Assembly (NCBI GenBank): GCA_001513105.1
Contig: LFSH01000026.1
Span: 62,001 to 126,000, forward strand
From: Clostridiales bacterium DTU070
GTDB lineage: Bacteria > Bacillota > Clostridia > DSM-8532
Reading direction: 5' to 3'
Length of the DNA stretch: 64,000 bases
The translations under genes and the position numbers were made by a program. Below the pieces are notes generated by a model. It saw nothing but the letters and a program-made list of their open reading frames with translations. It was not told the DNA's origin and did not search any database. This document shows, piece after piece, positions 55,664 to 61,591 of this stretch (the stretch's first letter is position 1; each line of letters opens with the position of its first letter).

Positions 55664-55829
55664 ATTTTTTCATGTATTTTGAGAGAGGCTTTGGCTGTAA
55701 CCGGGTATATTTATGGTAGTGTTATGTGAGATAAGGCTGATAATTACAGCGTTGACGGAGGTTTGTCCGATTGAGGGCTTATTGGTATTATAGGATATAT
55801 ATTATTGCAACAGGGGAACTGAACAACTT

Positions 55830-58463
55830 ATGAAAAATCTGGTAATAGGAATACTGGCACATGTGGATGCAGGCAAGACGACATTGTCGGAAAGCCTGCT
55901 GTATTTAAGCGGCAAAATCAGGAAACTCGGAAGGGTGGACAATAAGGACGCCTATCTTGATACCTATGAACTTGAAAGAGCACGGGGGATTACAATTTTT
56001 TCGAAGCAGGCGGTGTTCAGGATTGGTGATCTGCAGGTTACTCTGCTGGATACCCCCGGGCATGTGGATTTTTCGACCGAAATGGAAAGAACGCTCCAGG
56101 TGCTGGATTATGCCATCCTGGTAATCAACGGATCGGAAGGCATACAGGGGCATACAAAAACACTGTGGCGTCTGCTTGATATATACCAGATCCCCGTTTT
56201 CCTGTTTATAAATAAAATGGATCAGAACCGGGCAGAACGGGAAGAATTAATGGCTGAACTGAAAAAACAGTTGTCTGACCGGTGCATGGATTTCGGGCAA
56301 ACCGATACCGAGCACTTCTTTGACCAGCTGGCAATGTGTGATGAAGGCCTGATGGAGACCTTCCTTGAAAAAGGGCGGATAGAGAATTCCCAAATCCAAA
56401 AAGCAGTAAAAATGCGCAGGGTATTTCCGTGTTTCTTTGGCTCTGTCCTGAAACTTGACGGTGTTGAAGAGTTTTTGAACGGTATCGGGAAATACACCGA
56501 AGCTCCGTCCTATCCCAAAAATTTCGGTGCCAGGGTATTTAAAATCAGCAGGGATGAAAAGGGAAACCGGATGACCCATATGAAAATAACCGGAGGAAGG
56601 CTGAAGGTAAGGGATATTGTCAGCAATGGCGACTGGGAGGAAAAGGTTACGCAAATCCGTATTTATTCCGGCCAGAAGTATGAGGCCGTAAATGAAGTTA
56701 AGGCCGGGACGGTTTGCGCTGTTACGGGCCTTACCCGGGCAAGGTCCGGCGAAGGGCTGGGCGAGGAAAGAAACATATATTCACCCGTTCTCGAACCTGT
56801 ACTGTCATACCGCGTTGTACTTCCCGAAGACTGTGATCCGAGGGTTATGCTTCCAAAGCTCAGGGAAGTTGAAGAAGAGGAACCTGAGCTTCGCATACTT
56901 TGGAATGAGCAGCTTAAGGAGATCCAGGTCCGGATAATGGGAGAAGTGCAGCTTGAAATCCTGCAAAGCATGATAAAAGACCGGTTCGGAATAGATGTAT
57001 CCTTTGATTCGGGAAGGGTTGTATACAAAGAAACCATTGCAAATACGGTAGAGGGAGTCGGGCATTTCGAACCGCTGCGCCACTATGCAGAGGTTCACCT
57101 TTTGCTGGAGCCTGCAGCGCGCGGCAGCGGCCTTGAATTTGCCGTTGACTGCAGTGACGATGTACTGGCAAGGAACTGGAAAAACCTTATCCTGTCCCAC
57201 CTGAAGGAAAAGGTCCATATTGGGGTTCTTACAGGCTCTCCTGTTACAGACATGAAAATAACTCTTGTTTCGGGAAGGGCGCACAATAAACATACCGAAG
57301 GCGGGGATTTCAGGGAAGCCACCTATCGTGCTGTGCGGCAGGGGCTGAAGGAAGCAGAATCCATACTGCTTGAGCCGTACTATGATTTTCAGCTTGAGAT
57401 TCCTGAAAAAATGGTTGGACGCGCCATTTCGGATATTGAAAGGCTGCACGGTACATGCCGGATTTCACAGGTCAGTGGTGACATGGCGGTTATCTCCGGC
57501 AGTGCTCCTGTTTCAACTCTCCAGAACTATCAGAAGGAGGTTACGGCATATACAAGGGGGCAGGGACGGCTGTTCTGTACGCTGAAGGGGTATGATGTCT
57601 GCCACAATGCTGAAGAGGTAATTGCGGCCATTGGCTACGACTCCGAGAAGGACGCTGAAAACCCTACGGGTTCGATATTCTGTGCAAACGGCGCAGGTTT
57701 TGCCGTCAGCTGGGATAAAGTAAAGGAATACATGCATGTTGAAAGCTGGCTGAAGCAGGGAAAATCGCATGAGAATGCAAAGGATGAGAAGAACCGGGCC
57801 AATCCCGACAAATGGATTACACCTGATGAGGTTGACAGGATCTTTGAAAAAACCTTTTTCGCGAACCAGGGCAGGAAAACATACCTGCAAAAAAGAAGGC
57901 CCGCCGCGGAAGAGAATTACAGCCGGGATGTATACGTAGGAAAACCAAGGGAGGATAAAGAGGAATATCTTCTTGTGGACGGCTATAACATTATCTTTGC
58001 GTGGCCGGAGCTGAAAGACCTGGCGAAAGAAAACATGGACAGCGCAAAGTCGAGGCTGCTTCATTACCTGTCTAAATACAAGAGCGTTGAAAATATAAAT
58101 GTTATTGTTGTGTTTGATGCTTACCGCGTCCAGGGTCACCCCGAGGAAGTTATTGAATATGATAACCTGATTGTGGTATATACGAGGGAGGCGCAGACAG
58201 CCGACCAGTATATTGAGAAGTTCGCCCATGTCAACAAGGGAAAATACAATATAACCGTTGCGACATCAGACGGCTTGCAGCAGGTTATTATCAGGGGTGA
58301 AGGATGTGCCCTTATGTCGGCGTCAGAGCTGAGGGAAAAGGTAAAAATGACTAACGAAGGTATTATCAATGCCTTCAGGGAAAAACAGGCGGTGGACCGC
58401 AATTACCTTGGAGATGCCATATCCGATGAAGCCAAGAGGCGGATGCAGAAACTTGTGGACTGA
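55830..58463 (+). CDS. TetM-like ribosomal GTPase fused to a Rae1/YacP-type NYN endoribonuclease domain
   Basis: 877 residues. Residues 1 to about 640 are an EF-G/TetM-type translational GTPase: AHVDAGKTT at 10-18, RGIT at 52-55, DTPGH at 74-78 and NKMD at 128-131. TetM-like domains II-V follow. A basic linker leads to a C-terminal NYN domain from about residue 712 (YLLVDGYNIIFAWPELKDL) with acidic residues D717, D763 (VVFDAYR), D792 (TADQ) and D814 (ATSD). This closely resembles B. subtilis Rae1/YacP, which cuts mRNA in the ribosomal A site. The GTPase may place the nuclease there. It is probably not a plain tetracycline-resistance gene. Confidence 0.88.
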   Translation: MKNLVIGILAHVDAGKTTLSESLLYLSGKIRKLGRVDNKDAYLDTYELERARGITIFSKQAVFRIGDLQVTLLDTPGHVDFSTEMERTLQVLDYAILVINGSEGIQGHTKTLWRLLDIYQIPVFLFINKMDQNRAEREELMAELKKQLSDRCMDFGQTDTEHFFDQLAMCDEGLMETFLEKGRIENSQIQKAVKMRRVFPCFFGSVLKLDGVEEFLNGIGKYTEAPSYPKNFGARVFKISRDEKGNRMTHMKITGGRLKVRDIVSNGDWEEKVTQIRIYSGQKYEAVNEVKAGTVCAVTGLTRARSGEGLGEERNIYSPVLEPVLSYRVVLPEDCDPRVMLPKLREVEEEEPELRILWNEQLKEIQVRIMGEVQLEILQSMIKDRFGIDVSFDSGRVVYKETIANTVEGVGHFEPLRHYAEVHLLLEPAARGSGLEFAVDCSDDVLARNWKNLILSHLKEKVHIGVLTGSPVTDMKITLVSGRAHNKHTEGGDFREATYRAVRQGLKEAESILLEPYYDFQLEIPEKMVGRAISDIERLHGTCRISQVSGDMAVISGSAPVSTLQNYQKEVTAYTRGQGRLFCTLKGYDVCHNAEEVIAAIGYDSEKDAENPTGSIFCANGAGFAVSWDKVKEYMHVESWLKQGKSHENAKDEKNRANPDKWITPDEVDRIFEKTFFANQGRKTYLQKRRPAAEENYSRDVYVGKPREDKEEYLLVDGYNIIFAWPELKDLAKENMDSAKSRLLHYLSKYKSVENINVIVVFDAYRVQGHPEEVIEYDNLIVVYTREAQTADQYIEKFAHVNKGKYNITVATSDGLQQVIIRGEGCALMSASELREKVKMTNEGIINAFREKQAVDRNYLGDAISDEAKRRMQKLVD

Positions 58464-58541: not shown

Positions 58542-59033
58542 TCATTCATCCGTCTTTTCAAACCCCGGTTCCCTGAACTTTCTGAATTCATCCAGTATGG
58601 CGGGGTGGGTTTCGAAAAACCTGTTCAGCATATCAATATTTGCCATTGTGTTTTTACTGATACTGTGTTCAATGAGTTCTGTCTCCGAAAGAAGGTTTTC
58701 TGTAATTCCTATGTTTACTAAGAATTTTTCGATAACGTTATGCCTTTCAAGCAGGAATCTGCCGTATTTTTTCCCGGCCTCGGTAAGAAAAATAATGCCG
58801 TACTTCCGGTAATCCAAAAGTCCGAGGGCAGAGAGCTTCTGGACCATTTTTGTCGCGGAGGAGGGCTTTACGTTCAGGAGGTTTGAAAGGGTGTTTATTC
58901 TCATATAACCTTCCTTCTCCATGTTCCTGTAAATCATTTCAAGGTAATCCTCCATGCCGGATGTCAGTAATTTATCCTCCTGGTTTAAAAGCTGGTATCC
59001 GCGTACTGTGTAAAACCTGTCATTCCTGCTCAT
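58542..59033 (-). CDS. DtxR/MntR-family metal-dependent repressor
   Basis: About 163 residues. The N-terminal winged helix (SGMEDYLEMIYRNMEKEGYM, TLSNLLNVKPSSATKMVQKL) and dimerisation domain (LLERHNVIEKFLVNIGI, EHSISKNTM) match DtxR/IdeR/MntR-type regulators. No SH3-like third domain is present, as in MntR. It lies divergent to feoAB with a perfect dyad between them, so iron- or manganese-dependent repression of feoAB and itself is likely. The start is ATG 59033 behind GGGGTGG; upstream in-frame codons lack a site. Confidence 0.88.
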   Translation of the reverse strand: MSRNDRFYTVRGYQLLNQEDKLLTSGMEDYLEMIYRNMEKEGYMRINTLSNLLNVKPSSATKMVQKLSALGLLDYRKYGIIFLTEAGKKYGRFLLERHNVIEKFLVNIGITENLLSETELIEHSISKNTMANIDMLNRFFETHPAILDEFRKFREPGFEKTDE

Positions 59034-59128
59034 TTTTCCACCCCTGAAGTTTTGGTTGAAAAGTGATTTATACAAAACCCTATTCGTAACAACCGGCAAT
59101 TATGTTTCATATATTAGTCCTGAGCAAA

Positions 59129-59150
59129 AAATTTAGCCGCCGCTAAATTT
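59129..59150. promoter_or_regulatory. Operator dyad between the DtxR-like gene and feoAB
   Basis: AAATTTAGC (59129-59137), CGCC, GCTAAATTT (59142-59150) is a perfect 9+4+9 palindrome. Its position between the divergent regulator and the ferrous-iron transport genes and its TTTAGC/GCTAAA arms resemble DtxR-family metal boxes. It starts 29 bp before feoA. Confidence 0.7.
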
Positions 59151-59178
59151 ATGAAAAAAATGTCTGGGGGTTTTGTAT

Positions 59179-59418
59179 ATGAAAGGTATTACTATTCCGC
59201 TGAACTGTTTGCCGGTTGGTAAAAAGGCAAAAGTGAAACTGCTCCGGTCGGATGGAATTATCCGAAGAAGAATGCTTGATTTGGGGCTGATTCCTGACAC
59301 TGTTGTTGAAGCAATCCAGAAAAGCCCATCAGGTGACCCGACGGCTTACTATATCCGTGGTGCGGTAATGGCCCTGCGTTCGGAAGAAGCAGGAAGAATT
59401 CTCGTGGAAATGGCCTGA
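59179..59418 (+). CDS. feoA: FeoA, ferrous iron transport accessory protein
   Basis: About 79 residues with an SH3-like fold: LPVGKKAKVKLLRSD, RRRMLDLGLIPDTVVE and the ALRSEEAGRILV end. FeoA binds FeoB and affects its GTPase or uptake. ATG 59179 has CTGGGGG eight bases upstream. It precedes feoB by 25 bp. Confidence 0.93.
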   Translation: MKGITIPLNCLPVGKKAKVKLLRSDGIIRRRMLDLGLIPDTVVEAIQKSPSGDPTAYYIRGAVMALRSEEAGRILVEMA

Positions 59419-59443
59419 GCATGTCGCAGGGGAGGATTGGGAA

Positions 59444-61591
59444 ATGGGGCTTACAAACCGGTCCACAGGCTCAAATGTATTGCAGGAGGAGCTGAAAATA
59501 GAGTGCGCTCCTGGTGACAAAATCATAGCTCTTTCGGGTAACCCTAACGTGGGGAAAAGCACCGTATTCAACAGTCTGACAGGTATGAACCAGCATACCG
59601 GGAACTGGCCGGGGAAAACAGTTGCAAATGCCCGGGGCAGATGCAGGCATAGGGGCAGAAATTTTATAATCGTTGATATTCCCGGAACCTATTCGCTTAT
59701 GGCGAACTCAGCAGAGGAGGAGATTGCGCGGGATTTTGTATGCTTCGGAAATCCCGATGCGGTTGTTGTGGTTACCGATGCCACCTGCCTTGAGAGAAAC
59801 CTGAACCTTGTCCTTCAGATACTTGAAATTACCGACAAGGTTGTTGTCTGCGTCAATCTCATAGACGAAGCGGAAAGGAAGAAAATCCGCATAGACTTTG
59901 CGGAACTGTCCCGGCGCCTCGGCGTACCGGTCATACCCACAAATGCGCGCAGGAAAAAAGGCCTGAATGAACTGATGGATGCCGTTTATGCCGTGACAAA
60001 CGGGAAAATCCGGCTTAACCCGATAAAGATTACATATGATAAGGCAATAGAACAGGCCGTGGAAATAATACAGCCTGAAGTTCGGAAACTTACAGGCGGC
60101 AGAATTAACAACCGCTGGGTTGCACTTAAACTGCTTGACGGGGATGAACACATTATCGGTTCGATAAGCAGGCATACCGGTATTGATTTAGCGGGTAATG
60201 CAAACCTGGCCGCCCTTTTGGGCAAAGCAAAACAGTACCTTGCCGAAAACGGCATTAAGCCCGAAGATTTCCGCGACAAAACGGTGTCCCGGCTGGTAAC
60301 CGTTGCAGAAGAGTTAAGCAGGGAAACCGTCACATTTGAAAACAGGCAGTATAACAGTATTGACAGAAAGATAGACAGGGTTCTGACGTCGAAAATATTC
60401 GGGCTTCCTGTTATGCTTGCACTGCTTGCAATGATACTGTGGCTGACCGTTGAAGGCGCAAACTTGCCGTCCTCCATCTTAGCTGACTTCCTGTTCGGGA
60501 TTGAAAAAAAGATTTCGGAAATTATATTATCATCGGGTTCCCCGGCCTGGCTTCATGACATTCTTGTTCATGGAATGTACCGCACACTTGCCTGGGTGGT
60601 TTCTGTTATGCTTCCGCCTATGGCAATTTTCTTTCCGCTGTTCACATTTCTTGAAGACCTGGGGTACCTGCCAAGGGTGGCCTTCAACCTCGACAATTTC
60701 TTCAAGAAGGCATGTGCCCATGGGAAACAGGCTTTGACAATGTGCATGGGCTTCGGCTGCAACGCGGCGGGAGTTATAGGGTGCAGGATCATCGAATCGC
60801 CGCGGGAACGCCTGATTGCAATTTTAACAAACAATTTTGTGCCGTGTAACGGCCGGTTCCCGACACTGATAGCAATAAGCGTTATATTTTTCGGTGGAGC
60901 CATTGGCGGGGCTTTTCAGTCAGCAGTCCCCACCCTTGCTGTAACGGGTGTTGTCCTTTTTGGCATAATAATAACGCTTCTGGTTTCCAGGATCCTTTCA
61001 AAAACCGTACTGAAGGGTTATCCGTCATCATTTGCGCTGGAACTGCCGCCATACCGCAGGCCGCAGATAGGACGGATAATTATTCGCTCAATATTTGACA
61101 GGACATTGTTTGTTCTTGGACGCGCAGTTGCGATTGCCGCCCCGGCCGGGCTGGTTATATGGATAATGGCCAATGTTGCGGTGAATGATATAAGCCTTCT
61201 GAAGCATGCTGCAGACTTTCTGGAGCCTTTCGGCAGATTGCTCGGAATGGACGGGTATATCCTGATGGCTTTTATCCTCGGGCTTCCCGCAAATGAAATT
61301 GTTATCCCGATTATTATAATGAGTTACACGGCTTCGGGGGCAATGCTTGAATTTGATACGCTTAAGGACTTAAAACAGCTTCTCGACGCGAATGGCTGGA
61401 CATGGCTTACAGGACTCAACGTGATGCTGTTTTCGCTGATGCATTTCCCGTGCGGCACGACGCTCTGGACGATAAGAAAAGAAACCGGCAGCATGAAATG
61501 GACGCTCGCTGCATTTGCAATTCCCACAGCGGCAGGTATCGCGGTATGTCTTATCATTGCGGCCGCAGCACGGATTTTCGGACTGGCATAG
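59444..61591 (+). CDS. feoB: FeoB, ferrous iron transporter
   Basis: The 715-residue protein has an N-terminal G domain: P-loop GNPNVGKS at about 32-39, DIPGTYSL near 85 and VNLIDEAE near 144. A helical GDI region and the polytopic Gate/Core membrane domain follow, with the conserved motif CMGFGCNAAGVIGCRIIESP near 435-454. It imports Fe2+ across the cytoplasmic membrane. It lies downstream of feoA and the DtxR-like box, consistent with iron control. Confidence 0.97.
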   Translation: MGLTNRSTGSNVLQEELKIECAPGDKIIALSGNPNVGKSTVFNSLTGMNQHTGNWPGKTVANARGRCRHRGRNFIIVDIPGTYSLMANSAEEEIARDFVCFGNPDAVVVVTDATCLERNLNLVLQILEITDKVVVCVNLIDEAERKKIRIDFAELSRRLGVPVIPTNARRKKGLNELMDAVYAVTNGKIRLNPIKITYDKAIEQAVEIIQPEVRKLTGGRINNRWVALKLLDGDEHIIGSISRHTGIDLAGNANLAALLGKAKQYLAENGIKPEDFRDKTVSRLVTVAEELSRETVTFENRQYNSIDRKIDRVLTSKIFGLPVMLALLAMILWLTVEGANLPSSILADFLFGIEKKISEIILSSGSPAWLHDILVHGMYRTLAWVVSVMLPPMAIFFPLFTFLEDLGYLPRVAFNLDNFFKKACAHGKQALTMCMGFGCNAAGVIGCRIIESPRERLIAILTNNFVPCNGRFPTLIAISVIFFGGAIGGAFQSAVPTLAVTGVVLFGIIITLLVSRILSKTVLKGYPSSFALELPPYRRPQIGRIIIRSIFDRTLFVLGRAVAIAAPAGLVIWIMANVAVNDISLLKHAADFLEPFGRLLGMDGYILMAFILGLPANEIVIPIIIMSYTASGAMLEFDTLKDLKQLLDANGWTWLTGLNVMLFSLMHFPCGTTLWTIRKETGSMKWTLAAFAIPTAAGIAVCLIIAAAARIFGLA

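Follow-up and report, generated by a model that had tools for sequence, protein, structure and literature searches.

What does a protein do that joins a translational GTPase to a Rae1-like nuclease in a single polypeptide, and does it deserve the name of tetracycline resistance protein that many of its relatives carry? These questions are raised by a gene in a stretch of 64,000 nucleotides from Clostridiales bacterium DTU070, referred to here as the window. The gene was originally predicted to encode a ribosomal-protection-type (TetM-like) GTPase fused to a Rae1-like nuclease, that is, a self-delivering factor that cuts mRNA at an occupied or stalled ribosomal A site within a quality-control, antibiotic-response or toxin-like system. 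In a 2019 paper (PMC6613710) that cites the discovery paper, Leroy 2017, Rae1 itself is presented as an endoribonuclease of the ribosomal A site in Bacillus subtilis. The reading favoured here, at a probability of about one half, is that the fusion would be the clostridial Rae1, a ribosome-dependent mRNA endonuclease that has its own GTPase loading arm and serves as a constitutive housekeeping factor. This reading is drawn from sequence comparison and structure prediction.

Architecture of the gene and its product

The 877-codon frame was found to be intact and uninterrupted, with every motif at its predicted position (Table 1). Because 115 further fused homologues with identical active-site residues were read, the fusion is neither a chance event nor an assembly join, and both explanations were rejected. 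The gene stands alone downstream of nagA, as originally described: a gap of 167 bases separates it from the end of nagA, and its downstream neighbour lies on the opposite strand. A nagA-like sequence is located upstream of the orthologue also in the related genomes G263 and G150. An operon with nagA was rejected on account of the 167-base gap and of a separate promoter-like site for the fusion gene. This site is a consensus match, of a kind no more numerous than in shuffled sequences, and leaves a leader of only ~30 bases; a sequence resembling it was found 5' of the G150 and G201 orthologues. A promoter leader that is short and conserved speaks for expression being constitutive. Downstream of the fusion gene, a DtxR-like regulator and FeoA-like and FeoB-like iron-transport genes (58542–61591) were recognized by sight and look ordinary.

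Table 1. Features of the fusion gene, in window coordinates
Feature	Position	Strand	Basis
Promoter-like site TTGTCC-17-TATTAT, extended -10 (TGG TATTAT)	55763..55791	+	Consensus match
GTPase-NYN fusion gene, 877 aa	55830..58463	+	Open frame; 115 further fused homologues
G domain, residues 1-223; G1 10-18, G2 52-55, G3 74-78, G4 128-131	55830..56498	+	Pfam GTP_EFTU 1.5e-49
EF-G domains II + III, residues 232-392	56523..57005	+	Pfam EF-G_D2, EFG_III
Domain IV, residues 395-509, tip loops GVGHFEPLRHYAEVH and HNKHTEGGDF	57012..57356	+	Pfam EFG_IV; loops compared with TetM, TetO, EF-G
Domain V, residues 513-593	57366..57608	+	Pfam EFG_C
Conserved GTPase-subfamily extension, ~590-637 (C591, C618, H636)	57597..57740	+	Conservation; relatives compared
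Linker, ~640-711; disordered 644-665 and 675-708, predicted helix 665-679	57747..57962	+	AlphaFold2 pLDDT <50
NYN_YacP (Rae1-like) nuclease domain, 712-877; D717, N720, D763, D792, D814	57963..58460	+	Pfam 8.1e-50; Rae1 5mq9 phmmer 2.2e-23; AlphaFold2 model

Residues ~1–640 constitute, as judged by profile and motif matches, a complete five-domain translational GTPase of the EF-G/Tet type. The Pfam GTP_EFTU match covers residues 4–223 above its cut-off, and EF-G domains II–V are matched, also over the cut-offs, as far as residue 593. The hallmarks of EF2-family translational GTPases were all found, namely motifs G1–G4 (AHVDAGKTT, RGIT, DTPGH and NKMD), the catalytic histidine of DTPGH, and domains I–V. 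K16, T17, D74, H78, N128, K129 and D131 are identical in 116 of 116 fused sequences and in all 20 rows of unfused length (one of which is a fusion truncated at a contig end), which upholds the earlier view of an intact GTPase. The whole AlphaFold2 model was observed to match EF-G structures in Foldseek, and the best sequence matches of this half among solved structures are TetO and TetM. The genome of the window has two further genes of the EF-G type.

Domain IV bears the tip signature of the subfamily, GHFEPLRHYAEVH and HxKHTxGGDFR, in which H485 is aligned with the tip histidine of EF-G. Its tip loops (57054–57098 and 57282–57314), unlike those of TetM, contain many histidines that are invariant or nearly so (H412, H418, H423, H485 and H488). 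The extension at residues 590–637 is part of the GTPase rather than of the linker, being present also in unfused relatives. It has the motif S[VI]FCxxGxGxxVxWxxVxxxMH, with C591 conserved in 136 of 136 and C618 and H636 nearly invariant. This C591/C618/H636 extension was absent from TetM, TetO and EF-G in a sequence comparison, and is possibly a metal site. Since the unfused relatives end at the extension (~residue 637), the fusion appears to have been made onto a complete GTPase.

The linker measures 56–113 residues in the fused homologues, with a median of 75, and the family's linkers are ~37% charged. What follows it is, by sequence and model, a Rae1/YacP NYN domain with all catalytic residues intact. 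The NYN_YacP match spans residues 714–875 with 169.5 bits against a cut-off of 24.6 (E 8.1e-50), and includes the motifs LLVDGYN (714–720), VVFDA (760–764), TAD (790–792) and ATSD (811–814). D717, N720, D763, D792 and D814 are identical in 116 of 116 fused sequences, that of the window included. B. subtilis Rae1 was the nearest solved sequence in phmmer (5mq9, 2.2e-23). A comparison with the Rae1 structure had been proposed together with the original prediction, and its outcome agrees with the assigned identity: modelled alone with AlphaFold2 (pLDDT 87), the domain superimposes on crystal structure 5mq9 with TM scores of 0.74/0.79, an rmsd of 1.6 Å and 38% identity, and the residues of the acidic pocket are intact. 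The long AlphaFold2 model (38 fused homologues; mean pLDDT 80, pTM 0.59) does not fix the placement of the NYN domain relative to the GTPase.

The two forms of YacP differ in the tail that follows the TSD motif. In 22 stand-alone YacP proteins this tail was found to have 64–68 residues and a mean net charge of +4.5 in its last part. In the fused copies it has 25–87 residues and a mean charge of -0.8, and is shorter than 45 residues in 28 of 116 cases, two of which arise from contig ends. A basic tail of constant length, which is a feature of stand-alone YacP and is not demanded by the Pfam model, is thus not a property of the fused copies, and about one quarter of them are missing the tail. 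In B. subtilis Rae1, R166P in the tail region is among the changes from a suppressor screen and was classed as loss of function (PMC6613710). Because the tail was eroded once YacP was fused, the simplest reading would be that the GTPase took over ribosome targeting.

Distribution and history of the fusion

How widespread is this architecture, and what became of the free-standing nuclease? The class was surveyed in 293 genomes, with counts based on the matches listed and on a length threshold, and with nine broken or contig-edge rows set aside. NYN_YacP was detected in 192 of these genomes; among the 150 matches listed, 86 lie in frames of >600 aa, 59 are stand-alone (<260 aa) and 5 fall between. 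The GTPase subfamily was found with a profile of domains IV–V plus the extension, with a wide gap to EF-G. Among the matches listed, it occurs at fused length in 96 of the 293 genomes and at unfused length in 19, so that the search for the same two-domain order in Clostridia, suggested at the outset, gave a positive answer. The subfamily occurs also outside the class, as it was present in 18 of 250 genomes of a phylum-wide sample (16 at fused and 2 at unfused length). Among the named records, relatives of the fused C-terminal half were found in Desulfosporosinus, Anaerovorax, Fusibacter, Anaerostipes, Blautia and Roseburia, among others.

Genomes with the fusion had been expected to lack a stand-alone yacP, and this was largely borne out. 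A search of the window's own genome (99.95% complete) returned no NYN_YacP besides the fusion. Among the matches listed, a second NYN_YacP above the cut-off was present in only one of the 96 fusion genomes (G284); these genomes are related, so that the counts are not independent trials and the mutual exclusion partly reflects shared ancestry. Additional matches in G120, G174 and G208 were discounted as partial 21-bit matches below the cut-off. At stand-alone loci, RlmB adjoins YacP in 19 of the 24 examined, and MrnC (mini-RNase III) is also present in 11; inspection of the locus in the window's genome showed that the mrnC–rlmB pair is kept, with nothing yacP-like behind it. Taken together, the sequence data suggest that the fusion replaces the free-standing Rae1/YacP. 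Four stand-alone YacP loci of family f18 (L006, L016, L017 and L021), beside which no RlmB was found, group on the NYN tree close to L191, which belongs to G284. Genomes with the unfused GTPase contain a separate YacP in 13 of 19 cases, no YacP in 6 and the fusion in none, among the matches listed. Many genomes have YacP without a GTPase of the subfamily; since the GTPase also persists without YacP in those six, there is no obligate coupling between the two activities.

On the GTPase tree, the division between fused and unfused members corresponds to one change (SH-aLRT 83), and TetM and TetO are placed on a separate branch from the fusion subfamily. The unfused sister GTPases, of ~650 aa, come from families f34, f55, f58, f63, f69 and others; L122, at first placed with the unfused proteins, is truncated at a contig end and was therefore left out of the tree. 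This pattern is consistent with a single fusion, and fusion is, with moderate support, a likelier direction than splitting because stand-alone YacP is present also in Bacillus and Synechococcus. In genome G209, which also has an unfused GTPase, a stand-alone NYN (L019) is nested among the fused NYN domains and is likely a de-fusion. A 644-aa member without NYN (L199), from the L. salivarius megaplasmid pMP1CEA3 (NZ_CP116813.1), has fused sequences as its nearest rows. By these placements, L199 and L019 appear to be two later break-ups of the fusion, and their occurrence indicates that either half can live alone. L199 adjoins an rpsN (S14) gene; its annotation, TetM/TetW/TetO/TetS family, is that of a tetracycline resistance protein, and its host strain is sensitive. 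In Agathobacter rectalis, a 933-aa fusion annotated as TetM/TetW/TetO/TetS family (L200, NZ_CP143948.1) lies on a 252-kb plasmid and adjoins a BrnT/CopG-type toxin–antitoxin pair.

Proposed mechanism and alternative readings

How might the two halves cooperate? We infer that the protein binds ribosomes and cuts mRNA, in an ordered series of steps with a role in rescue. On a paused ribosome, the EF-G-like arm in its GTP form would dock at the factor-binding site and push the His-rich tip of domain IV towards the decoding region, where it would probe or clear the A site. On GTP hydrolysis domain IV would be withdrawn. The NYN domain, kept at high local concentration by a flexible tether of ~70 residues, would then enter the vacated A site, or reach the mRNA just downstream, and its Asp-rich metal site would cut the message. 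After the cut the stalled message would become degradable and the ribosome would be rescued, and the fusion would thereby do the job of free YacP in bacilli and other clostridia. Domain IV of EF-G-like factors, as in EF-G and TetM, reaches into the A site. As domain IV and the NYN domain cannot fill the A site together, a sequential hand-off, which is a conjecture, would be needed. The original prediction, which noted that TetM-type GTPases bind near the place that Rae1 enters, missed this competition; binding there argues for sequential rather than simultaneous action. Its idea of a self-delivering nuclease is consistent with the replacement of free YacP and with the tail erosion. The full version, in which a GTP-gated, ribosome-bound mRNA nuclease uses its unique His-rich tip to sense and clear a blocked A site and passes the exposed codon on to the tethered Rae1, and in which the standard Rae1 of many gut clostridia is concealed by the label 'tetracycline resistance protein', is tentative and stands well below even odds.

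Should the annotation be taken at its word instead? The fusion would then confer tetracycline resistance as a ribosomal protection protein, and its RNase domain would contribute a resistance action of a new kind, as proposed in 2015 (PMC4342817). The TetO and TetM matches to the GTPase, the rank of tet_protect as the best NCBIfam match, and the annotation of many relatives as TetM/TetW/TetO/TetS family all favour this. However, the score with that model (NF012153) is 436 bits, far short of the cut-off at 775, and an unfused relative scores 427. Loop III of TetM/TetO, YSPVS, which we take to be the tetracycline-site loop, is absent; HNKHT is aligned there, with K487–H488 in place. In addition, the subfamily branches away from TetM/TetO, and the gene is single-copy across the class rather than patchy. 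Leader-peptide attenuation was rejected, as the ~30-base leader has no room for it and is too short for attenuation in the style of tet(M). A weaker point, given the diverged loop III, is that L. salivarius P1CEA3, the strain whose megaplasmid carries the NYN-less relative, is sensitive to tetracycline (MIC 1 µg/ml; PMC10778751). With the score below the cut-off and the YSPVS loop missing, the strict 'TetM' label fails, including the ribosomal-protection type of the original prediction, and a resistance gene was rejected as the leading reading; resistance is now quite improbable. Nor is the antibiotic-response or toxin-like system supported, the gene being single-copy and widespread, with a promoter leader that is both short and conserved. 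In principle, a ribosome factor with an RNase domain could stop translation by cutting mRNA, as a toxin or defence effector, but no result here favours this, and conservation across the class, the ordinary nagA neighbour upstream in its genus and the lack of an antitoxin-like partner at the locus make it hardly credible.

Two further readings accept the domains and deny the cooperation. The GTPase may have its own ribosome job, such as rescue, recycling or back-translocation of stalled ribosomes, with the NYN domain trimming stable RNA (rRNA or tRNA). This accords with the neighbours of free YacP counted above, as RlmB and MrnC are both rRNA enzymes, with the rRNA/tRNA maturation role once proposed for NYN_YacP (cited in PMC4342817), and with the six genomes that have kept the unfused GTPase but have no YacP. 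It is unlikely, considering the description of Rae1 as an A-site mRNA endonuclease (PMC6613710) and a fusion partner that is an A-site-type factor, not an rRNA enzyme, which points to translating ribosomes. Alternatively, the fusion may only secure co-expression, with the halves working independently and handing nothing over. The existence of the de-fused NYN and of the NYN-less GTPase, and the long, variable and disordered linker, would be expected on that account; retention of the fusion over much of the class with nearly all free YacP lost, and tail erosion limited to the fused copies, would not, and mere co-expression is accordingly judged unlikely, a shade more so than stable-RNA trimming.

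Relation to known systems

If the mechanism of a GTPase delivering an mRNA endonuclease to the ribosome is true, it would represent an unusual form of translation quality control, and the fusion would offer a handle on how Rae1 reaches the A site. Many 'tetracycline resistance' genes of gut bacteria, among them those on the Agathobacter rectalis plasmid and on L. salivarius megaplasmids, would then be misnamed, which matters for resistome surveys. No functional study of the fusion was found in the open-access literature. As far as that literature shows, it is new that the fusion is common and nearly excludes free YacP, that an unfused sister exists, that the history takes a single change, that the tail is eroded, and that evidence speaks against the TetM label.

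The architecture has been known since 2015, when Atkinson (BMC Genomics 2015, PMC4342817) described a YacP-like NYN RNase domain on Tet proteins of ten clostridia and put forward the idea of RNase-based resistance. Those fusions have the same two parts in one protein and come from the same taxonomic group, and the window protein, compared with them by description, is very probably another member. The main text of that paper names the protein a Tet protein, whereas residues, distribution and exclusion are not analysed there.

What distinguishes the fusion from its better-known relatives? With Rae1/YacP of B. subtilis (5mq8, 5mq9) it has in common the NYN fold and all acidic residues, at ~38% identity; unlike Rae1, its NYN domain is fused to a GTPase, is not located beside rlmB, and in many members has an altered or lost basic tail. 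TetM and TetO are likewise five-domain EF-G-like GTPases, of similar length and with the same G motifs, but the fusion differs from them in its tip loops, its added Cys/His extension, its sub-cut-off score and its separate branch. Elongation factor G has the same domain order and fold, and its tip histidine is aligned with H485, whereas loop I and the extension of the fusion GTPase are different. The unfused sister GTPases belong to the same subfamily and carry the same tip loops and extension, but are without the linker and NYN domain, with YacP being separate or absent.
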